From Flavobacteriales bacterium (GTDB taxonomy: Bacteria > Bacteroidota > Bacteroidia > Flavobacteriales > CAJXXR01): DNA of 64,000 bases. The stretch covers positions 1-64,000 of the forward strand of contig JAOAQX010000006.1 in the NCBI GenBank assembly GCA_025210805.1, written 5' to 3'. Below are positions 16,457 through 63,635 of this stretch, in pieces (positions within the stretch are counted from its first letter, which is position 1; every line of letters starts with the position of its first letter). The translations under genes were made by a program, and so were the position numbers. The notes below the pieces were generated by a model. That model saw nothing but the letters and a program-made list of their open reading frames with translations, searched no databases and was not told the origin of the DNA.

Positions 16457-17197
16457 ATGAAAAAATATTTTACAGATATGAAGAAAATAACAATCGTTTT
16501 TTTACTTTTATTTTTTATCAAAGCAGAAGCTCAAACTGGCTCCACTGACAACTTCATGCAAGGGAGGAAATATTTTGGATCCCTAGTATTCTCTCCTTTT
16601 CATAAGGATTATATGGCATCAAATGTAAATATATCCGTAGGAGGAATGGTGAGTCCTAAACTCGCCTTGGCATTTGATTATTACATCATTGGCGCTAGTA
16701 GTAAAGACATGTATTTAGAAGGTAATATTTCCAACACAGAATTACAATCAGGAAGTTTTAGCTTTGGTGTATTTGCAAGGTATTATGCATTCAAAGGTTT
16801 ATACGGTGCTTTAGGTTCAAAATATCATACAAACTTCCAACAACACTATTCTACTATTACGAACACTTCTCTTCTTTTGGATAAAAACGGAAATCCTGTT
16901 CAAGACGAAAATGGAAATATTGTTTATACTCCTCAGAATAAAAAAATTAAATATGAATTAATCAGCGAATCTCTAGAATACTATATCGGAGTGGGATACA
17001 CACAAAGATTAATAGATGGATTTGCTATTGATATCATGCCTAAACTTTCGATACTTAGTGGTAAAAGAGACCAAGTGATTAAGGAGAAAAATAATGGATC
17101 AAATGGTGATATGGAATATTTTTACCACATCCAAGATGATGTTTCTTTTACTGAGATGATTATGGGCTGTCAATTTAGATTGATGTACTTCTTTTAA
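16457..17197 (+). CDS. Outer-membrane beta-barrel family protein, paralogue 1
   Basis: 246 residues from ATG 16457. An alternative ATG at 16478 (MKKITIVFLLLFFIKAEAQ) gives a more usual signal peptide. The mature protein has alternating polar/aromatic strands and ends in an aromatic residue (QFRLMYFF), typical of eight-strand-type porin-fold outer-membrane proteins. It carries the segment KNGNPVQDENGNIVYTPQNK, closely paralleled in the next gene (QGDFVLDAAGNTLYAIST). The two genes are 19 bases apart and evidently arose by duplication. The function is unknown. Confidence 0.7.
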   Translation: MKKYFTDMKKITIVFLLLFFIKAEAQTGSTDNFMQGRKYFGSLVFSPFHKDYMASNVNISVGGMVSPKLALAFDYYIIGASSKDMYLEGNISNTELQSGSFSFGVFARYYAFKGLYGALGSKYHTNFQQHYSTITNTSLLLDKNGNPVQDENGNIVYTPQNKKIKYELISESLEYYIGVGYTQRLIDGFAIDIMPKLSILSGKRDQVIKEKNNGSNGDMEYFYHIQDDVSFTEMIMGCQFRLMYFF

Positions 17198-17216
17198 TTA
17201 AAAAAATAACATAACA

Positions 17217-17969
17217 ATGAAGAATTTTATACTCCTACTAGCATTACTCTCTCTACAATCAGTAGTAAATGCGCAAGACAATGAATTTGTTACGAAACTA
17301 AAAGAAAGAAATTTAGGAAACTTCAGAAACAGCTCCCTGAATGTTGAATTAAACGGAATGATTAGCCCTATTGACGAAGGTGAACATCCCATTTATCTTG
17401 GAGCTCAATTAAGAATTGTCAGTCATTTATATTTAGGGCTTAGTTATAACATAGGAAACAAAATAAGGAATCCTGAAGGGGTAGATATCGAAACTTTACA
17501 AAACAAGCCTGAATTCATTAGTTTTCTAGATGCTTATCAATTTAAATTGGACTATTATTTTAAAAATGGATTAAAACTTGGCTTTTTTATTCAAAAAAAC
17601 TATGCCTCGGAAATAAAATCTGTGCTCAATACCGCTTCTTACCCTATTACAGATGATCAAGGTGATTTTGTTCTTGACGCAGCAGGGAATACTCTGTATG
17701 CCATAAGCACTAAAAAAATTCCAAAGAGTTTTTATAGTGAATATTTTGCAGTCGGATGGAATGTAGGATACTCTTTTCCTATTTACCAAAAATTATATGT
17801 AGAAATCGAATCTAGATACTGTGGATACAGTCTAGATTTCTCGGAACAGCATAGTGAAATTTTGAAACCAGAAGAACCCAAAAACCCGATGAATGTTTAC
17901 AAAACAATCCAACAACGTTTAACCGGAACTAAAGTTCAATTACTTTTTGGGCTTAGATATTTTATTTAA
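17217..17969 (+). CDS. Outer-membrane beta-barrel family protein, paralogue 2
   Basis: 250 residues with a signal peptide (NFILLLALLSLQSVVNAQ) and a C-terminus ending in an aromatic strand (QLLFGLRYFI). The overall plan, length and an internal loop are shared with the preceding gene, including Y-rich strands and an exposed loop near residues 140-165. Presumably an outer-membrane barrel, with ligand unknown. It is the last gene of the TM2-barrel-barrel group and converges on the hxlR-type gene. Confidence 0.7.
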   Translation: MKNFILLLALLSLQSVVNAQDNEFVTKLKERNLGNFRNSSLNVELNGMISPIDEGEHPIYLGAQLRIVSHLYLGLSYNIGNKIRNPEGVDIETLQNKPEFISFLDAYQFKLDYYFKNGLKLGFFIQKNYASEIKSVLNTASYPITDDQGDFVLDAAGNTLYAISTKKIPKSFYSEYFAVGWNVGYSFPIYQKLYVEIESRYCGYSLDFSEQHSEILKPEEPKNPMNVYKTIQQRLTGTKVQLLFGLRYFI

Positions 17970-45682: not shown

Positions 45683-45803
45683 ATACAAAAATACAATTTA
45701 TCCATTTCTAATGTTCATTAGATCAAAAGTGGTATCATTTCAAATTCCGAAATTTTATATAAAGAGTGTTGCACGGTATTATTACCAAATGAAATTCAAT
45801 AAA

Positions 45804-45829
45804 AAAGCCCAACAATAATTGCTGAGCTT
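45804..45829 (-). terminator. Terminator of the beta-propeller gene
   Basis: AAAGCCCAACAATAATTGCTGAGCTTT forms an imperfect hairpin followed on the minus strand by a T run, about 75 bases beyond the stop codon at 45901. Confidence 0.55.
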
Positions 45830-45900
45830 TCTTTGTATATAAAAAGATTATCCTCCATTAAGAATGGATATTCTCAAGGATTTTTCTGTCAAGTATTTAT

Positions 45901-47646
45901 TTACTGAATGATCATTTTTTTACGGAAGTAATTACCCAAATCATCAGAGAATTGAACAATATAAATCCCAGCAGATAGTTTACGGACATCAACTGTTTTA
46001 TTGAGCTCTGCATTCATTGAAAACTTTTGCTGGATTCGCCCCCTTAAATCATAAATCACTCCTTTTTGGTATACATCATTATTCATTTCGATATGCAAGA
46101 AATGAGTTACTGGATTTGGGTATATACGAATATTTTCACCACTGAGTTCTTCTATATCCGTTTCATTACATATTACTAAAACTGGTTGGTTTTGTGTTGT
46201 AGAATTTCCATTACCATCAGCATAAGTCCATAGAATATCCTTCACACCAGCGGTAGTGTACATTAATGAGCTATTTGTTGTAGCGGTCACAGAATCTACA
46301 CAATTATCCAATGCCATTGGTTTAAAATCAATTTGCTCATCACACGATACCTTAATCGTATCTAAAACAGAAATAGTAGGCACAGGAGGTATTGTATCTT
46401 TAACAATAACAGATTGCGTTTGACTCATACTCGCACTTCCATTACTATAGGTCCATGTAACTGTATAATTTCCTTGAGAAGTATAAGAAATAGGATCTGT
46501 TGTAGTTGCTGTAATAACACCAGAGTTTGCTGTAGGTGCTGTTAATTGTACTGAGCATTGACCGCTTACAAGTGCTAAACTATCTAGATCTGGCACTATG
46601 CTCAATGATTGATCAAATGTTTTCAAAATACATTTATTAGGAATCGCACAATTAGGGATAGAGCCTGTTTCAATAATTGAATAAGTACTTCCATCCACTA
46701 CTTGATAATGCCCTGGTGCAGAAAATGTATTCGCAGAACAAATAACAAAATCTCCAGAATTGGTATCTATATCAAATGAGCGTCCGTAAGCGAATGAATA
46801 GCTTGCACCAGGTAAAGTACTGGTAAAAACCTCAGACAATGGCAAGCTCCCAGGAGTATTGATATTATAGAGATACATTTTTTTGCTAGAAGACCAGAAA
46901 TAAAGTTTTTGATTGTAGAGTCTTAATAATTTAGTAGAACTAATTCCCGTATTGATTATCGTTCCCAATGCAAAACTATTAGCTATATCAATAGATTGTA
47001 ATTTTCCACTGCCATTAAGAATCCAAATTTTATTACCAATTTGATCATAAACCATCCCTTTAATATTTCCTAATGAAAGATTGATAACTCCTGTAACGGC
47101 ATTAGTTGAAGTGTCCACCTTAACAATGTTTTGCCCCATAGCCACGTATAAAACACCATTGATGTGCTCCATAAAGCTTGAAGAAGAACTAATTTTATTG
47201 GTAGGATCACTTACTGTTGACCAAGTATTATTGGCAAGATTAATTACCTGTAAATCCCCTGGATTTCCCATACTAACATAAGCTTTGGTAGGGCTTACGA
47301 ATTTCAATGTTTGAGGTGCATTTGAGGTCGTAAAAGTATGAACTTCATTAAGCGAAGGATAATCGGCAATTACAACTCGGCAATTACTTCCTGGTTTTTC
47401 AGCAATAATGGCCTTATTTCCAAGCACCACAAAATCTTGCAGGACATTAAAACCAGTTGTTGAGTTTGCTGTTTGGTAAACACCGCTAGAAGTAGTTGGA
47501 GGTGAAACCGTTGTGTTTCTTCTAAAAACGTCTCCGTTCGTTGTTCCAAAATTACCCTCTGCAATTAAATCGAGAGTAAATGTCGTTTGAGCAAATGATG
47601 TTGCAACCATCAGCCAAGTAAATAAAACAGTAATTTGTTTTTTCAT
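45901..47646 (-). CDS. Secreted YncE/DUF5074-like beta-propeller protein with T9SS sorting domain, B12-riboswitch controlled
   Basis: 581 residues. A signal peptide (QITVLFTWLMVATSFAQ) is followed at about 20-350 by a beta-propeller-like region: repeated strands such as VVIADYPSLNEVHTF, LQVINLANNTWSTV, NIVKVDTSTNAVTGVINL and KLQSIDIANSFALG. Two HYR/Ig-like segments come next (TVTWTYSNGSASMSQTQSV; DILWTYADGNGNSTTQ), then a type A T9SS domain (RIYPNPVTHFLHIEM ... GIYIVQFSD). The leader carries a cobalamin riboswitch. In Bacteroides, YncE-like propellers (BtuG) capture B12 at the cell surface for BtuB. This makes a B12-capture role plausible, but no btuB-like receptor is in the window. Confidence 0.8.
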   Translation of the reverse strand: MKKQITVLFTWLMVATSFAQTTFTLDLIAEGNFGTTNGDVFRRNTTVSPPTTSSGVYQTANSTTGFNVLQDFVVLGNKAIIAEKPGSNCRVVIADYPSLNEVHTFTTSNAPQTLKFVSPTKAYVSMGNPGDLQVINLANNTWSTVSDPTNKISSSSSFMEHINGVLYVAMGQNIVKVDTSTNAVTGVINLSLGNIKGMVYDQIGNKIWILNGSGKLQSIDIANSFALGTIINTGISSTKLLRLYNQKLYFWSSSKKMYLYNINTPGSLPLSEVFTSTLPGASYSFAYGRSFDIDTNSGDFVICSANTFSAPGHYQVVDGSTYSIIETGSIPNCAIPNKCILKTFDQSLSIVPDLDSLALVSGQCSVQLTAPTANSGVITATTTDPISYTSQGNYTVTWTYSNGSASMSQTQSVIVKDTIPPVPTISVLDTIKVSCDEQIDFKPMALDNCVDSVTATTNSSLMYTTAGVKDILWTYADGNGNSTTQNQPVLVICNETDIEELSGENIRIYPNPVTHFLHIEMNNDVYQKGVIYDLRGRIQQKFSMNAELNKTVDVRKLSAGIYIVQFSDDLGNYFRKKMIIQ

Positions 47647-47785
47647 TTTATTAGATTTTTACGTTAATAAAATGGAAAATAAAGGAAGAGAGTGCCTATT
47701 AAAAATAAGCCCTATCATTCAACTTTTTCTCCGAAAGTGAACTTAAAATAGTTAGCTTAATAATCTAGAAGTTCTAATTAAACTA

Positions 47786-47953
47786 ACACACTTGGGCAGG
47801 TCTCCTGACTTTGTCCATTAATTTACCTTCCCATCAAGTTTTGACAGTGGTACTCAAATTAAATACAGACATTACAGTTGCGGGAACAGTCCTTGAATTT
47901 CACAAGATTCCCTATTAATTCATTAAATGAAACCAAAATGCTGGGCAAAAGTA
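47786..47953 (-). ncRNA. Cobalamin riboswitch
   Basis: On the minus strand the leader contains, in order, TAATAGGGAATCTTGTGAAA, TGTTCCCGCAACTGTAATG (the B12 box region), ACCACTGTC, TGATGGGAAGG and AGTCAGGAGACCTGCC. These are the conserved elements of the class I adenosylcobalamin riboswitch in the right order and spacing. It ends about 140 bases before the ATG of the beta-propeller gene. A TACTTTTG box (47946-47953) sits at its 5' edge and may be the promoter -7 element. High B12 is expected to reduce expression. Confidence 0.95.
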
Positions 47954-51674: not shown

Positions 51675-51730
51675 TGTTTGGCTGAAATGTTTTTAGTACT
51701 TTTATCTTTTTAGCTTTAATGACCGTTCAG

Positions 51731-54700
51731 ATGAAGAAATTCTTATCCCTTTCAATTGTAGGTTTTGTTTTATTTTTTAGCACATTGGCGAAAGCCAATG
51801 AACTCACAAATTTCCAAGCGGAAGCACTTTCTATACAATCTTGCTTTTTTGCCGAAGGAAATTCCTTTGAGCCCATGATGATGGCTGTACCTGCTACCAA
51901 TTTTTCGGCAAGTCAAACAACCATTTGTGAAGGGCAAACTGTGAGTTTTACCGATGTATCTGCAGGAAGCCCAACCGCATGGAGCTGGGTTTTTAATGGA
52001 GGTACTCCTGCTTTTTCTAATCAACAAAACCCTGTTGTAACTTATGAAAACGCTGGAAACTATCCCGTTATATTAATTGCCTCTAATAATGATGGAGCCG
52101 ATACCTTGGTTATTGCGAATTTTATAGCAGTTCACACTTTCCCCGAAGTTGATTTTGCACTCACACAAAACGGTCTTTGTGGAGATTCAGCAATTTTGGC
52201 TTTCACAAATCTTGATACCAACTTTACCTTAGAAATTAAAAACAATGCAGGTAATGTTATTAGTACAGATACTTTAACTACTATAAAAACTTCTGGAAAC
52301 TACACCTATGAAGTAACCAATACTTTTGGGTGTACCACAGATTCCAGCTTTTTTATTACAGTAAATGACATAGAGATTACAGAAACTCTTGGACAATTAG
52401 CCTGTGGAAACGACACCAACGGAAGTATTACTTTAGCATTAGCTGGAGGACAAGGCCCTCTTACTGTAGCATGGACGGATACTAACTTAACAGGAACTTC
52501 GTTAATCAATTTGCCAGAAGGAAATTATACCGTTACAGTTACCGATACTAACAACTGCCAGAAAACAGAAACTTATACAATAGTAGGGGCAAATCCAACA
52601 CCAAGCTTTAACCCAACAATTAGTAATAATAATGTTTGTGCAGATTCTGCAACATTACTTCTGAGTAATTTAGATTCCGTTTATACCGTAAGCATTACGA
52701 ATGAAGCAGGTGTGCAAGTTTCATCGGATAGTATTTTTCATTTTCACACAAGTGGGACTTTTTCTTATGAAGTAACAGACACTAGCGGATGTAAAGTGGA
52801 TTCTACTTTTAGTATTATCGTTAATGATATAGAAATCACACAAGCCGATCTTACACACAATAATTGTTCGAATACAGAAAATGGAATCATTGATCTTACC
52901 CTAGCAGGAGGTCAAGGACCGCTCACAATTGTGTGGTCAGATGCTAGTCTATCAGGAAATACCATAGACTCTCTTGCAGAAGGACAATATATCGTGACCA
53001 TTTCAGATACCATTGGATGTAGTATTACAGATACTTTTATGATTAATACTCTTAATGGTGTGCCTGGTGTAGATTTCAATATCAACCAGAATGGACTGTG
53101 TGGAGATTCTGCAATACTTTCATTCGCTAACCTTGACACTACTTATAACGTGAGTTTCTTTGATTCACTCGATAATGTAATAGGAACCGATACCATTCAA
53201 ATAGTTAAAAACAGTGGAATGTATCATTTTGAGGTAACCGACACCAATGGATGTATCACAGACAGTACTTTTCAGATTTTTGTAAATGATATCGAAATAG
53301 TTTCTGATGTCAAACAAATAACATGTTTTGGAGGAAACGACGGAGCCATAAATATTTCTATAAATGGTGGTCAACCTCCATTTACCTTTACTTGGGCAGA
53401 TCCTGCACTTATAGGAGACACCATCACAGGATTGGATACCGGAATGTACCATTTAACAGTTCAAGATCAAAACGGATGTCAAAGAACAGATTCTTTCCAT
53501 CTTGTACACCTCAATGAACTGCCCACTGCCGATTTTACAATTCAGCAAAATACACTTTGTGAAGATTCTGTTTTAGTATTCTTTACGAATGTAGACCTTA
53601 CCACTAATATTACTATTAGAGATACCGCAAATAATGTTGTAGGTGGCGGATTATTCAGTCATTTAAACCAATCTGGAGAATATACTTATACGCTCACAGA
53701 TACAAATGGTTGTACTTTTGACTCTACCTTTTCTGTGGTTATGAATGATATTCAGATAATGGATTCATTAGTACATAATAACTGTTTGAACACTGCTACA
53801 GGTGAAATTCATTTAAGCTTTGAAGGAGGACAAGGTCCCTTAACCGTTGCTTGGGATGAAGTTCCTGCAACAACTCCAACAATTTCAGGCTTAGCAGCAG
53901 GTGTTTACCATGTGACCGTTACAGATACCAATAACTGTTCTAGAGTCGATAGTTTTGAAATTCTTACCAATTTTGGACTACCAGTAGTAGATTTCTATAT
54001 TCTGAATGATTCATCTTGTGCGGATTCTGTAGAAGTAGGATTTAATAATATAGATACCTCTTATACGGTTGAAATATTTGATCAAAATGGGTTGCCTGTA
54101 GGTGATACTAGCCAAGTATTCATTCATAGTTCAGGGAATTTCAACTATGTCATTACAGATACAAACGGGTGTTCTATCGATAGTAATTTTACGGTTCTAA
54201 TGAATGACCTACAGCTTAATGCAACAACCGTAAATGCAACCTGTGAAGGAATTCCGAACGGATCTGTAAGTGTGAATCCTACAGGAGGATCAGGTGACTA
54301 TATTTTTAGCTGGGCAGATACTACAATTACTTCAAATTCAATGACAAATCTGGAACCTGGAAACTATATTGTTACGGTAACAGACACTATACAAAATTGC
54401 TCACTCACAGATACCATTGTTCTTAGTGCAGACCAAGTAATGAGTATTCAACTTTATACAGACCACGGAACGTGTGCAGGAGTAAATGACGGATCTGCAT
54501 TCTTACAGATTCTCAGTGGAATTGCCCCTTTTGATATCAACTGGAGTTTTACAATTAATCCAAGTGATACTTTGGATGGAATAGTACCCGCAGGAAATCA
54601 TTCTGTTACAATTACCTCTGCAGTAGGATGTACTAAAACGATTCCTTTTACCATTTTGGATGGTGCCGATATCGACATTCAAATTACAAAAGATGATGTT

Positions 54701-55630
54701 TATTGTGCTGGAGATTCTAATGGATACATCAAGGCGGTAGCTTCTGGAGGAACGGCACCTTATACTTACCTATGGAGTAATAATTTAGGAACAAATAGTG
54801 AATTACACAATTTGAAAGCTGGATCTTACACCCTAGAAGTGAGAGATTCTAATAACTGTGTGGAATATGCAACTGTAGATATTATAGAAGAATCTGTTAT
54901 AGACATTCAGGCAAATATAACTGAAGAAAAATGTAGCTATACAAACGACGGAAGAATTGAACTGACACTTTCTGGAGGTGTTGGCCCCTATACCGTAGAA
55001 TGGCTGGATACAAATATTACAGGATTAGTTCTAGACAGTATTGCTGGTGGTGTTTATAATGTAAAAGTAACAGGAAGTGATGGCTGTAAAATGTTTGATG
55101 CCATAAATGTACCAATCACCTACCCTATTTCGGCATCTTATATTCCATCTGATACGGTGCTGTATTTAGATTGGAACTCTACCGTAAACTTCACCAATAA
55201 CACATCAGGAGCTTTGTCTTATTCATGGAGCTTTGGAAATGGCGACTTTAGTACCGAAGTAAATCCTACTTATAAGTACACAGACCATGGAACTTATTAT
55301 GTAACACTTACAGCATTCCATGGACCTTGTGAAGATGTCTTTACCAAAAAGATTATCGTAAGACCTAATATTGGAGTTAAAGAACAAGTTCTCATAAACT
55401 TTGAAGTATATCCGAATCCAACAAAAAATATTTTTACGATTGATTTGGCAGAAGATTACCCAGAAGTGAATATGGAGCTTTATGATATTCTTGGAAAAAA
55501 GATCTTAGAAAGAAAACTCACCGAAAAATCTAATGAAATAGCAATACCTAGCTTGGAATCAGGAACATATATTATCAGACTTATGTCTGCTGACGGAAAA
55601 ATTCAACAAAAGAAGTTGATTGTTCAATAA
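51731..55630 (+). CDS. Giant SprB-repeat/PKD surface protein with T9SS sorting domain
   Basis: 1299 residues from ATG 51731 (an ATG at 51719 adds four residues). After a signal peptide (FLSLSIVGFVLFFSTLAKA) comes a PKD domain (about 60-135, SWVFNGGTPAFSNQQNPVVTY). Five near-tandem units of about 154 residues follow (starting near 52141, 52594, 53063, 53522 and 53981). Each holds a LCxDSxxxxFxNLDT half and a SprB-type half (GGQGPLTVAWTD...GNYTVTVTDTNNC). More SprB-type repeats, a second PKD domain (SYSWSFGNGDFSTEVNPTYKY) and a type A T9SS domain (VYPNPTKNIFTIDL ... GTYIIRLMSA) finish the protein. It is probably a surface adhesin. A TTG...TATCTTTT promoter may lie in the 44 bases after folA. 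Confidence 0.9.
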   Translation: MKKFLSLSIVGFVLFFSTLAKANELTNFQAEALSIQSCFFAEGNSFEPMMMAVPATNFSASQTTICEGQTVSFTDVSAGSPTAWSWVFNGGTPAFSNQQNPVVTYENAGNYPVILIASNNDGADTLVIANFIAVHTFPEVDFALTQNGLCGDSAILAFTNLDTNFTLEIKNNAGNVISTDTLTTIKTSGNYTYEVTNTFGCTTDSSFFITVNDIEITETLGQLACGNDTNGSITLALAGGQGPLTVAWTDTNLTGTSLINLPEGNYTVTVTDTNNCQKTETYTIVGANPTPSFNPTISNNNVCADSATLLLSNLDSVYTVSITNEAGVQVSSDSIFHFHTSGTFSYEVTDTSGCKVDSTFSIIVNDIEITQADLTHNNCSNTENGIIDLTLAGGQGPLTIVWSDASLSGNTIDSLAEGQYIVTISDTIGCSITDTFMINTLNGVPGVDFNINQNGLCGDSAILSFANLDTTYNVSFFDSLDNVIGTDTIQIVKNSGMYHFEVTDTNGCITDSTFQIFVNDIEIVSDVKQITCFGGNDGAINISINGGQPPFTFTWADPALIGDTITGLDTGMYHLTVQDQNGCQRTDSFHLVHLNELPTADFTIQQNTLCEDSVLVFFTNVDLTTNITIRDTANNVVGGGLFSHLNQSGEYTYTLTDTNGCTFDSTFSVVMNDIQIMDSLVHNNCLNTATGEIHLSFEGGQGPLTVAWDEVPATTPTISGLAAGVYHVTVTDTNNCSRVDSFEILTNFGLPVVDFYILNDSSCADSVEVGFNNIDTSYTVEIFDQNGLPVGDTSQVFIHSSGNFNYVITDTNGCSIDSNFTVLMNDLQLNATTVNATCEGIPNGSVSVNPTGGSGDYIFSWADTTITSNSMTNLEPGNYIVTVTDTIQNCSLTDTIVLSADQVMSIQLYTDHGTCAGVNDGSAFLQILSGIAPFDINWSFTINPSDTLDGIVPAGNHSVTITSAVGCTKTIPFTILDGADIDIQITKDDVYCAGDSNGYIKAVASGGTAPYTYLWSNNLGTNSELHNLKAGSYTLEVRDSNNCVEYATVDIIEESVIDIQANITEEKCSYTNDGRIELTLSGGVGPYTVEWLDTNITGLVLDSIAGGVYNVKVTGSDGCKMFDAINVPITYPISASYIPSDTVLYLDWNSTVNFTNNTSGALSYSWSFGNGDFSTEVNPTYKYTDHGTYYVTLTAFHGPCEDVFTKKIIVRPNIGVKEQVLINFEVYPNPTKNIFTIDLAEDYPEVNMELYDILGKKILERKLTEKSNEIAIPSLESGTYIIRLMSADGKIQQKKLIVQ

Positions 55631-58853: not shown

Positions 58854-61800
58854 TTAAAAAACAACAAAAGTTCCTTTCTTGAATTCTTCCTTATCATTTT
58901 CTGTTTTGTACCTCAGCGTATAAACAAAAGTTGTTGTTTCCGTAATTCCAGCATCATAAGGATTAAATACTTTATTAATATCATTGGATTTAAAAACAAT
59001 TCCTCCCCAACGATCAAAAATGAGTAATTCAAAAGAACTTAAATCGCATTCGGTCTTTGCTCTAAATTCAGCATTTTCGATATTTTCTCCTAAAACTACC
59101 GTGTTTGGAAGATAAACTGGACAAGCACAATCTTGTTCAAAAACAATAATTCTATGATTCTTTTCGCCACAAGCATTGGTCACTTTTACGGTGTACTCTC
59201 CTGGTTTTGTAAGTAACTGAGTAGACAAATCAGACCCTGTACTCCACTCATAAGTAGCTCCTTCCAAGGTAATATCAAGGAAGATTTGACTGTTTAAGCA
59301 CATCATCGTATCTGTTGGGAGATAAAATGTTGGTGCATCGGCAACAGTAAGGTACATACTGTCTCTCATGCTACAATAAGCCGTTTTCATTTCTACCCAA
59401 TACCATCCTTGCTCAGTAATAGTAATATTAGAACTGGTGTCTCCTGTACTCCATAGATAGGTTTCTACAATACTTTGAGAGGCATTTAAGAAAACAGATT
59501 CTCCTTTACAAATTCCTTGATCAAATAAAGCTTCTTTTGGTTTTTCTCTAAGGGTTGTTGCGGTAATTCCTGTGCTTTCGCACCCAAAAAGATTAATGGT
59601 TAAACTCAGTTGCTGAGAATCCCATACTTTCTTAACGGATGAAGTATCATTATCGCTCCAGAGATAGGTAGCTTCTGGGTGAACAAATACATCTAGCTCT
59701 ATGGTGTCTCCTTCACAAATATTATAATTCTTTTGAAGGTCAATTTCTGGATAAGGATGTACCACTACTTTGGTCGTGTCCGAAACGATACAACCATTTA
59801 AATTGGCTTGCACAATATAGGTTCCTGTTTGGTTCACCGTAATGGCAGAATCGGTACTATTATTATTCCACAGATAAGTAGCTCCAGGGAAATATGCATC
59901 TAAAATGGTATCATTTCCAATACATAAATTGATTGAATCTGGTAAATTAATACTTGGATACGGAAGATAATTCACGGCAATAGTGTCATAAGATGTACAA
60001 CCAAATTTGGTCACTTCTACTGTGTAAGTTCCTGCGGTATTTACCTGAATATTTTGGGTAGTTTGGTTATTATTCCAAAGATAATTTGCATTGTTTTCTT
60101 GAACAGAAAGCGTGATCGGTGTTCCCTGACAGGCACTTTGGTCGGGTCCTAAATTAATAATAGGATAATTGTGTACCAAAACAACCGAAGTATCTGAGCG
60201 TACACATCCACCTAAATCTACTTGTACAATATAAGTTCCAGACTGATTCACCATAATTGCAGAATCGGTACTTGAAGTATTCCAAGAATAACTTGCATTT
60301 GTATTAAATACATTCAAAATTGTACTATCTCCTGTACACAAGTGAACCGTATCTGGCAATAAAAGAGTTGGATTTGGTTTAAAAAGCACATTGATGGTAT
60401 CATAAGACAAACATCCAAATCTATTGGCTATTACCGAGTAATTACCTGAGGTAGTCACAGAAATACTTTGGGTATTCTGATTGGTGTTCCACAAATAACT
60501 AATATTTGAGTCTTGTACTGTTAAGTTCACGAGGTCTCCTTGGCAAGCTTCGATATCTGGTCCAAAATTAATTATTGGATATTGATGAACCTCCACAACA
60601 GTAGTATCTGAAACATCACAAGAGTTTGAACTTACTGTAACGATATACGTTCCAGATTGATTGACCATAATGGCAGAATCGGTACTAGAATTGTTCCAAG
60701 AATACGTTGCATTTGGATTAAATACATTCAATATTGTGCTATCACCTGAACAGAGATGAACGGTGTCGGGTAAGTTCACTATTGGTGCTGGTGTAAAGTT
60801 TACCACTACCGTATCATAAGTCTTACAACCCATAATATCTGCTTCTACACTATATGTTCCAGAACTTGTTACGGCAATACTTTGGGTGGTTTGATTGGTA
60901 TTCCAAAGATAGGTTGCATTAGGATCTTGTACGGTTAATGTCACGGTGTTTCCTTGACAGATCGTAATATCGGGTCCAAGATTTGTCACAGGCGGCGTAA
61001 AAACCTGTACCACTGTAGTATCTGAAATAATACAACCATTTAAATTAACCTCTACAATATAAATACCTGCTTGATTCACTGTGAGAGTAGGTGAAATACT
61101 TGAGTTATTCCAAGAATAGGTTGAGTTTGAATATGTCGCATTAAGAACCGTGCTATCACCTGCACATAAATTTACAGTATCTGGTAGATTTACGATAGGA
61201 TAAGGCTTGATTACCACTTGAACAGTATCTCTGGAAATACAACCGTTTTTGGTTACCGCTACAGAATAGATTCCAGAACTTGTAATATTAATAGACTGTG
61301 TAGTTTGGTTATTGTTCCAAAGATAGGTGGCATTATTCTCTTGTACTGTTAAATTCACCGCTGTTCCTTGACAAACTGAAAGGTCTGGACCTAAATTTGT
61401 AACAGGATATCCATGAACATTGACCACGGTAGTATCATATTTTATACAACCATCTAAATTTACAGCCACTGTATAGGTTCCTGATTGAGAAATGCTAATG
61501 GCAGAATCTGTATTGGAAGTATTCCATAAATAAGTCGCATTTGGATAAAAAGCATTTAAAATGGTGGTATCTCCTGTACAAAGATTAACGGTATCGGGCA
61601 GATTAACGGTTGCATAATTTCCAAAATCTACTGAAATAGTATCATAGGAGGTACAACCGTTTTTTGTAACCGCTACAGAATAAATCCCCGTAGTATTCAC
61701 TTGAATGGCTTGTGTGGTTTGGTTATTATTCCACAGATAGTTTGCATTTCCTTCTTGCACCATCAAAGTGGTGTTCATTCCTTGACACAAATCTTGATCG

Positions 61801-63635
61801 GGACCTAAATTAGTTATCGGAAAAGCTTGCTCAATGACTACGGCAGTATCAAAAACAGGACAAGCATCTAAATTTACTTGTACAATATAAGTTCCAGATT
61901 GGTTTACATTGATAATGGAATCGGTACTAGAATTATTCCATAAATAACTAGCTCCCGATGCCGATGTGGCATCCAAATCAACTGAAGATCCTGTACAGAA
62001 ATATACCGTATCTGGCAAATTGACCATTGGAGGAACTTTGGGCGTAATTGCGATACTGTCTCTGCTAGAACATCCTTGCTTAGTAATTTGCACCCAGTAA
62101 TTCCCAGGACTTGAGATAGAAAGTGTTTCGGTGGTATCTCCTGTATTCCACAGATAGCCTTCTGTAGTTTGAAAATCGGGATTGAGTATTAAATTATTTC
62201 CAAGACAAATACTGGTATCACTTCCTAAAGAAAAAGAAGGAGCAACAGAAGGAGCAACAGTAAACGTATCTCTAAATTCACAACCATTCAAAGTATTGAT
62301 AAAGGAATAATTCCCAGGTGAATTTATGGTTCTCACGGCATTTGTTGTCCCATTTTCCCAAGAATAAGCCGTTTGAGAATTATTAAAACTAATATCTACA
62401 GAAAGTGTTTCCCCTGGACATAAAAACAACGTATCCGCTATAGAAACAACAGGTTTTGGTCTTTCTGTTACAGAAAAAGTTTTACTAAAGCTACACCCAT
62501 CATTAGACTGAGCCGTTACCGAGTAAAGACCAGGCGTTTTTGCATAAATCAAACTATCATTTGACCCTGTACTCCAAGTTACTGATGACAGACCTACATC
62601 TGAACTTAATGCTAAAGACAATGCCACAGAATCTCCTGGGCAAAAAGAACCTACACTCGTAGAGATTCCATCTACAAACTGATTTAACGAGGTTTGAATA
62701 AAGAATGTTGTATCGCTAAGTGCTTCAGAACATAAATCTGAAGTTGCCGTTATATAAGTGGTATTTGGGTTGAGATTAACCGTTGTACTAAAATTTCCTG
62801 TATAAATATTCCCAAGGTTATCTTTCCATTCAATATTGTTTGCAGAAACGATGGGCATAAACTTCGTAGAAGTATAAATATAGTCTGAGTTTGTGTTATT
62901 AGGGATAAAACGAGTTCCCTCAATAGAAGCGGTCCAAACACTACCATGATCACGGCTTACATTTTCATCGTTATCATAAACAATGGTCGTTTTACTACCC
63001 GAACTGTTAACCACTCCATGAATAGCTAATCCATTATACCAAGTACTACAAACGGGTTTGTTGATCAAATGGGTTTCTATAACATTTGAACCTTCTTTTA
63101 ATACAATGGCAGAACAAAATGTTAAGTTCGAACAGTTAAACATCGGCACCTCTAACCATCTCACAACAAAGGCTCGGTTTGGAGCAGTTCCTATGGTAGC
63201 ATACTCGAGTTTCCCTCCATTGAGCGGATTAATATCCTGAAAAGGCGCATGAATCGCATTTTTGAGATCTGAGTTTGAGCTTGGGCCGAGAGTGTTATTC
63301 GTAGTATAAGCACTGTAAGTATTGGCTTTTGAAGCATTAAACGTGATAAAATTATTTGAACTGATGACCACACTTGAATAGTTTACTCCATAAAATTTAA
63401 AATTAAATCCTAGGTTGATCAAAGAACTGAAATCATCATCTCCTAAACTCAAGCTATCAAAAGTGGCGTTACCCACCAAGTTCAAAAAAGCAAGCTCAGA
63501 GGTATTAAAACCCATAGAAACTTGTGTACTATTCTGCCCTTCACAGATATATTTTTCTTCTGGTAGTGCAAATTGAGCGTGAGCTGTATAGAAAAACAAA
63601 AAGAGAACGCTTAATAACGCAATAATTTTCTTCAT
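58854..63635 (-). CDS. Giant repeat surface protein with gliding motility-associated (type B T9SS) C-terminal domain
   Basis: 1593 residues. Signal peptide (IIALLSVLFLFFYTAHAQ), then an N-terminal beta-rich domain (about 25-260: GFNFKFYGVNYSSVVISSNNF). About fifteen to seventeen short Ig-like repeats follow, each with LCxGDSxxLN...YLWNxxxT...GTYxVxVxxxGC. From about 62.03 to 59.75 kb these form six higher-order units of about 414 bp. Each unit has one VNLPDTVxLC half and one NLGPDxxxCQG half. The end (CPVYLPNTVVLG ... FELLIFDRWGGIVFKS ... TFVYTLRYKTENDKEEFKKG) is the CHU_C/gliding motility-associated domain, a type B T9SS signal. It is probably a long fibrous adhesin. Confidence 0.92.
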   Translation of the reverse strand: MKKIIALLSVLFLFFYTAHAQFALPEEKYICEGQNSTQVSMGFNTSELAFLNLVGNATFDSLSLGDDDFSSLINLGFNFKFYGVNYSSVVISSNNFITFNASKANTYSAYTTNNTLGPSSNSDLKNAIHAPFQDINPLNGGKLEYATIGTAPNRAFVVRWLEVPMFNCSNLTFCSAIVLKEGSNVIETHLINKPVCSTWYNGLAIHGVVNSSGSKTTIVYDNDENVSRDHGSVWTASIEGTRFIPNNTNSDYIYTSTKFMPIVSANNIEWKDNLGNIYTGNFSTTVNLNPNTTYITATSDLCSEALSDTTFFIQTSLNQFVDGISTSVGSFCPGDSVALSLALSSDVGLSSVTWSTGSNDSLIYAKTPGLYSVTAQSNDGCSFSKTFSVTERPKPVVSIADTLFLCPGETLSVDISFNNSQTAYSWENGTTNAVRTINSPGNYSFINTLNGCEFRDTFTVAPSVAPSFSLGSDTSICLGNNLILNPDFQTTEGYLWNTGDTTETLSISSPGNYWVQITKQGCSSRDSIAITPKVPPMVNLPDTVYFCTGSSVDLDATSASGASYLWNNSSTDSIINVNQSGTYIVQVNLDACPVFDTAVVIEQAFPITNLGPDQDLCQGMNTTLMVQEGNANYLWNNNQTTQAIQVNTTGIYSVAVTKNGCTSYDTISVDFGNYATVNLPDTVNLCTGDTTILNAFYPNATYLWNTSNTDSAISISQSGTYTVAVNLDGCIKYDTTVVNVHGYPVTNLGPDLSVCQGTAVNLTVQENNATYLWNNNQTTQSINITSSGIYSVAVTKNGCISRDTVQVVIKPYPIVNLPDTVNLCAGDSTVLNATYSNSTYSWNNSSISPTLTVNQAGIYIVEVNLNGCIISDTTVVQVFTPPVTNLGPDITICQGNTVTLTVQDPNATYLWNTNQTTQSIAVTSSGTYSVEADIMGCKTYDTVVVNFTPAPIVNLPDTVHLCSGDSTILNVFNPNATYSWNNSSTDSAIMVNQSGTYIVTVSSNSCDVSDTTVVEVHQYPIINFGPDIEACQGDLVNLTVQDSNISYLWNTNQNTQSISVTTSGNYSVIANRFGCLSYDTINVLFKPNPTLLLPDTVHLCTGDSTILNVFNTNASYSWNTSSTDSAIMVNQSGTYIVQVDLGGCVRSDTSVVLVHNYPIINLGPDQSACQGTPITLSVQENNANYLWNNNQTTQNIQVNTAGTYTVEVTKFGCTSYDTIAVNYLPYPSINLPDSINLCIGNDTILDAYFPGATYLWNNNSTDSAITVNQTGTYIVQANLNGCIVSDTTKVVVHPYPEIDLQKNYNICEGDTIELDVFVHPEATYLWSDNDTSSVKKVWDSQQLSLTINLFGCESTGITATTLREKPKEALFDQGICKGESVFLNASQSIVETYLWSTGDTSSNITITEQGWYWVEMKTAYCSMRDSMYLTVADAPTFYLPTDTMMCLNSQIFLDITLEGATYEWSTGSDLSTQLLTKPGEYTVKVTNACGEKNHRIIVFEQDCACPVYLPNTVVLGENIENAEFRAKTECDLSSFELLIFDRWGGIVFKSNDINKVFNPYDAGITETTTFVYTLRYKTENDKEEFKKGTFVVF

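Follow-up and report, generated by a model that had tools for sequence, protein, structure and literature searches.

Organization of the Locus

The window analyzed in this work is a stretch of 64,000 nucleotides from a Flavobacteriales bacterium (GenBank assembly GCA_025210805.1, contig JAOAQX010000006.1, positions 1 to 64,000). It carries on the minus strand a gene for a secreted beta-propeller protein, preceded by a cobalamin riboswitch and followed by a terminator. The features of this unit are the following:

47778..47952 (-), cobalamin riboswitch aptamer (RF00174, model positions 1-189 of 189)
47647..47777 (-), leader from the aptamer up to the start codon, the putative expression platform
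45901..47646 (-), gene for the secreted BtuG-like propeller protein of 581 aa, ending in a T9SS tail (ORF; orthology with L036)
47590..47646 (-), signal peptide, residues 1-19, ending SFA/Q (read by eye)
46609..47589 (-), propeller domain, residues 20-346, divergent DUF5074/BtuG family (PF16819, model, Foldseek)
46171..46599 (-), Ig/HYR-like middle region, residues 350-492 (HYR_4C 17.8 bits, below cut-off)
45904..46125 (-), type A T9SS sorting domain, residues 508-581 (PF18962, TIGR04183)
45801..45833 (-), intrinsic terminator, 15-bp stem then T-rich (pattern scan and fold)

The initial annotation had read a cobalamin riboswitch in front of the gene and suggested a covariance-model check, which returned a full-length RF00174 match of 104.6 bits (E 3.9e-25; gathering score 31.5). 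It is the sole Rfam match in the 64-kb window, it outscored the related models of its clan at this aptamer, and it is one of two cobalamin riboswitches found genome-wide. The aptamer is separated from the ORF by 131 nt. Within this leader the block CTTTCGGAGAAAAAGT is identical in the ortholog L036 by leader alignment, and 3' of it folding gives possible hairpins, the final one potentially pairing with the start codon. Hairpins can be drawn for both termination and start-codon blocking; the leader of the window folds no better than its shuffles (z -0.96), and that of L036 has a z of -4.8. We assume that B12 represses the gene because the cobalamin riboswitches measured in Bacteroides are repressing (PMC12751083).

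The upstream neighbour is a divergent RelA/SpoT-like gene. Downstream, the terminator sits 68 bp beyond the stop codon (one found by the pattern scan vs 0.1 expected; fold z -4.3), and an MmcQ/YjbR gene comes after it. With a divergent gene on one side and a strong terminator on the other, the propeller gene is therefore a monocistronic unit with its own riboswitch. There is no TonB receptor near it (btuB is on contig 5), so the gene stands alone as first annotated. A promoter scan upstream of the gene was empty, which says little because it used the sigma-70 consensus, from which Bacteroidota promoters differ.

Domains of the 581-aa Protein

The T9SS sorting signal and the missing lipobox, both proposed from the sequence at the outset, were borne out. 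The C-terminal domain scores above cut-off with Por_Secre_tail (PF18962, 49.9 bits) and with TIGR04183 (41.6 bits), and the signal peptide is a plain one by eye, with no lipobox cysteine at its end. The genome encodes the T9SS component SprA (2178.7 bits), which together with the C-terminal sorting domain places the protein among predicted type A T9SS substrates. The middle region, below the HYR_4C cut-off in the window protein, is above it in the ortholog L036 (28.7 bits) and is 35-45% identical to repeats of a 2199-aa frame in another genome (G001); it is probably a spacer or stalk. Elsewhere in the window there are two repeat-rich secreted proteins with PKD/SprB-like repeats recognized by eye, one of 1303 aa at 51719-55630 (+) with a T9SS-type tail, also seen by eye, and one of 1593 aa at 58854-63635 (-).

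The Propeller Is a Divergent BtuG Relative

DUF5074 is absent from the matches of a whole-protein Pfam scan, and a single-sequence PDB search with the 581-aa protein gave no link to BtuG. When the propeller was isolated (residues 20-346), it matched DUF5074 (PF16819) at 34.2 bits vs a cut-off of 27.2, and a six-frame search gave 30.9 bits at the propeller; BtuG homologues are likewise matched by this Pfam family. A profile made from the window protein and its ortholog alone (the two orphans) found BtuG 3DSM first among 177,635 PDB sequences (E 2.8e-4). Matches to PINK1 were rejected as weak.

The propeller-like fold had been predicted with a suggestion to compare a model with BtuG, and it held. 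An AlphaFold model of the propeller, built from a 23-sequence alignment that includes BtuG-like relatives, is all-beta with a pLDDT of 85 and a pTM of 0.86; the first full-length model was poor (pLDDT 65). In a Foldseek search against the PDB, BtuG structures take all of the first 16 places (E 1.4e-16 to 9.9e-13, TM about 0.75), with about 17-18% identity in the structural alignment, and the best unrelated match follows at E 1.3e-9. BtuK1 (9s6c), another B12 binder, is matched more distantly than BtuG (E 1.6e-9 vs 1.4e-16), level with general propellers. BtuG was likewise the best match of an earlier four-sequence model of lower quality. We regard the family link as solid: the propeller is a divergent relative of BtuG.

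An Ortholog Also Preceded by a Cobalamin Riboswitch

The sole close ortholog found is L036 in a Crocinitomicaceae MAG, with 49-50% identity over the full length. It stands alone as well: a tRNA precedes it, a prfC-like gene follows it, and a cobalamin riboswitch of 105.7 bits lies 90 nt before it on the same strand. As judged from these two sequences the riboswitch-propeller pairing is conserved, because the ortholog too is alone behind a cobalamin riboswitch; the neighbours differ yet the riboswitch stays, which is good evidence that the riboswitch controls the propeller gene. A two-row profile found no second ortholog in 396 genomes of the order, only ordinary BtuG-like proteins. Broad BLAST matches in relatives were set aside, since they covered mostly the T9SS tail or the Ig repeats.

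Other B12 Uptake Genes in the Genome

On contig 5 the second cobalamin riboswitch stands ahead of genes that encode a T9SS-tailed DUF4465 protein, a protein of 307 aa and a TonB receptor of 605 aa with weak but specific matches to BtuB models. The DUF4465 protein (L003:8994-10328 (-)) is BtuJ-like and comes first in this riboswitch operon. The 307-aa protein (L003:8067-8990 (-)) belongs to no known family, and a similar 319-aa protein is found beside btuB in a related genome (L038). A third locus on contig 34, which has no riboswitch, encodes a lipoprotein of the DUF5074/BtuG type at 16690-17697, followed by a BtuF-type periplasmic binding protein and by a FecCD permease, for which BtuC is the best match in NCBIfam. 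Three large proteins of the genome contain B12-binding domains, and therefore the cell uses corrinoids. Because the btuB operon and the BtuG/BtuF/BtuC-type locus lie elsewhere, the uptake system is a split one, and the window gene is one more member of it with a switch of its own.

The initial annotation had suggested a different design for the same task as BtuG. The design part stood, with a T9SS tail in place of the lipobox; the idea of a lone replacement for BtuG did not, as the genome has a lipoprotein BtuG of its own.

T9SS-tailed Propellers in Related Genomes

The initial annotation had suggested checking whether orthologues in related genomes lie beside TonB receptors. The ortholog L036 does not; other homologues do, following btuB in nine related loci. 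Lipoprotein BtuG-like propellers follow btuB behind cobalamin riboswitches at three of these loci (L038, L039, and L091), T9SS-tailed ones do so at three more (L037, L088, and L089), and at the remaining three (L090, L084, and L085) the T9SS-tailed and lipoprotein forms occur together behind riboswitch and btuB. The T9SS-tailed BtuG-like design is recurrent and the window protein is not its sole example, because such proteins are found inside riboswitch-btuB operons of related genomes as well. Four changes of the T9SS tail are needed on the tree, of which well-supported branches force at least three; the export route has therefore been gained or lost repeatedly. A literature search that reached few subscription papers found no description of a T9SS-tailed BtuG.

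The T9SS-tailed DUF5074 proteins of L037, L088, L089, L090, and L084 resemble the window protein in combining a propeller with a type A T9SS tail under a cobalamin riboswitch. They differ in that they lie in a btuB operon and keep most BtuG positions, whereas the window gene stands as an orphan behind a riboswitch of its own and its propeller has diverged. The window protein is distinctive in this isolation behind a private riboswitch, in its Ig/HYR-like stalk and in its diverged propeller.

Several other arrangements were seen in the order. Two operons of riboswitch and btuB with a lipoprotein BtuG encode 750-aa T9SS-tailed proteins that match DUF5074 at over 390 bits (L084:2054-4312 (-) and L085:2287-4575 (-)), and proteins of this kind are frequent in two families of the order (f6 and f3). 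A 630-aa BtuG-like propeller (L087:4110-6002 (-)) has no cobalamin riboswitch in the surrounding 11 kb. Among 30 high-scoring riboswitch loci of the order most precede btuB, and none directly precedes a propeller. At seven of the 30 (L097, L101, L104, L106, L114, L116, and L125) the first gene encodes a conserved 127-aa protein like a hotdog-type acyl-CoA thioesterase, with no obvious role in B12 uptake or in replacing B12.

Replacement of Conserved BtuG Positions

Positions were counted as family-conserved when kept in at least 75% of the 21 other family rows, which gave 45. Each of the two orphans has 43 of these positions in the alignment and keeps 22 of them. The other full-length homologues keep 33-44 of 45 (73-98%), a range that favours these rows because the conserved columns were defined from them, and the lipoprotein BtuG of the same genome (L040) keeps 82%. 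The losses are common to both orphans and fall on polar motif residues. With BtuG2 residue numbers taken from the alignment, the first N of NEGN (N54) is A, P-R-Y is P-Q-T and the D of DA (D331) is S in both orphans. L-G-D has become G-F-N in the window protein (G-(F/L)-N across both), N-N-S has become K-P-G (K-P-(G/S) across both), and the conserved E180 is S (S/Q across both). E-G-N-F, Y316 and a Q are kept, and most other motif residues of blades 1-4 are replaced. In the window propeller Tyr335 is F. Trp194 and Trp272 are absent from it, as from most other aligned members, and the beta-5A loop is deleted, a loop that is short in some other members too.

In BtuG2 it is the beta-5A loop that clamps B12. 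The BtuG2 study (PMC10404256) reports that the Asn54-Thr64 loop holds the ligand, and it places the hydrogen-bonding residues, described as highly conserved, in blades 1 to 4. Because of the last point, some of the lost residues are probably corrinoid contacts. The Asn54-Thr64 loop corresponds to the partly kept EGNF motif, and some of the changed positions are inside it. With many near-invariant BtuG-family positions gone in both orphans, corrinoid binding or its specificity may differ in them. In a close Bacteroides pair, BtuK1 binds B12 and BtuK2 does not (PMC12751083).

Proposed Function

The best explanation, which we hold with moderate confidence, is a monocistronic B12-repressed unit for a surface-delivered corrinoid-capture protein that feeds a distant BtuB. 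At low intracellular B12 the riboswitch would permit expression of the gene; the product would pass through Sec and then the T9SS, and the latter would leave the propeller at or close to the cell surface, carried on its Ig-like stalk. There it would trap scarce corrinoid and hand it to the BtuB encoded elsewhere under the second riboswitch. Bacteroides BtuG binds B12 and sits on BtuB (PMC6143338, PMC10404256); for the window propeller B12 capture is inferred.

The main rival is a propeller whose specificity has changed or whose binding has been lost. A change of specificity or function is a possible though less probable reading, in which the protein is made under B12 limitation and the altered pocket binds another ligand; candidates are a different cobamide or a precursor, a protein that carries B12, or a B12-bearing surface or particle. 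Both orphans share substitutions at family-invariant polar positions, yet their propellers are about 55% identical to each other, and they sit on a long stem branch of the tree (3.16 changes per column), which suggests a maintained but different surface. The riboswitch is kept in both, and the genome also has a BtuG (L040) with most canonical residues. Against this, fold and regulation fit corrinoid uptake, and no direct evidence points to another ligand. A narrower form, to which we give only tentative credence, is an orphan, riboswitch-driven BtuG offshoot, exported by the T9SS, with a pocket remodelled so as to capture a different form of cobamide or a macromolecule that carries B12; it would act as a surface or released cobamide trap away from a BtuB partner.

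Loss or weakening of binding is unlikely: a degenerate BtuG paralogue with no or weak corrinoid binding, a surface protein still wired to its riboswitch, would fit the lost conserved residues and the lack of an ortholog in the other genomes searched in the order, with one among the genome contigs searched (L036), but the frame is open with all domains intact in two genomes, the changes are shared and not scattered, and riboswitch and leader are conserved (74% aptamer identity between window and L036, no more than some unrelated pairs). That the riboswitch belongs to another gene and precedes the propeller by chance would accord with the predominance of btuB and the lack of propellers directly behind the 30 high-scoring riboswitches of the order, but it is highly improbable, given that L036 in another neighbourhood has the same arrangement and strand and that the propeller gene is the only one between riboswitch and terminator.

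Comparison With Known B12 Binders

To our knowledge, the accessory binders of gut Bacteroides, where surface B12 capture has been worked out, are lipoproteins. A capture protein for BtuB as favoured here would belong to a known class, BtuG-type capture under a B12 riboswitch; its export route, orphan layout and altered propeller together make it a variant within that class. The window protein is like BtuG (BtuG2/BT1954 of B. thetaiotaomicron and relatives) in its modelled propeller fold, PF16819 match, cobalamin-riboswitch control and predicted secretion to the outside of the cell. Unlike BtuG, it has a T9SS tail and an Ig-like stalk instead of a lipobox and lipoprotein export signal, about half of its family-conserved positions are replaced, and its gene, unlike that of Bacteroides BtuG, is not beside btuB. 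BtuJ (DUF4465) and BtuH/BtuK are riboswitch-controlled surface B12 binders, as the window protein would be if it binds B12. They differ from it in that the Bacteroides proteins are lipoproteins and DUF4465 is a jelly-roll fold; a tie to BtuJ is the T9SS-tailed DUF4465 protein in the btuB operon of the same genome. These results indicate that elsewhere in the Bacteroidota BtuG-type and DUF4465 proteins take a different export route, and that a binder need not stay coupled to the gene for its receptor. With its divergence, the propeller also offers a natural way to test which residues BtuG needs to bind corrinoid.
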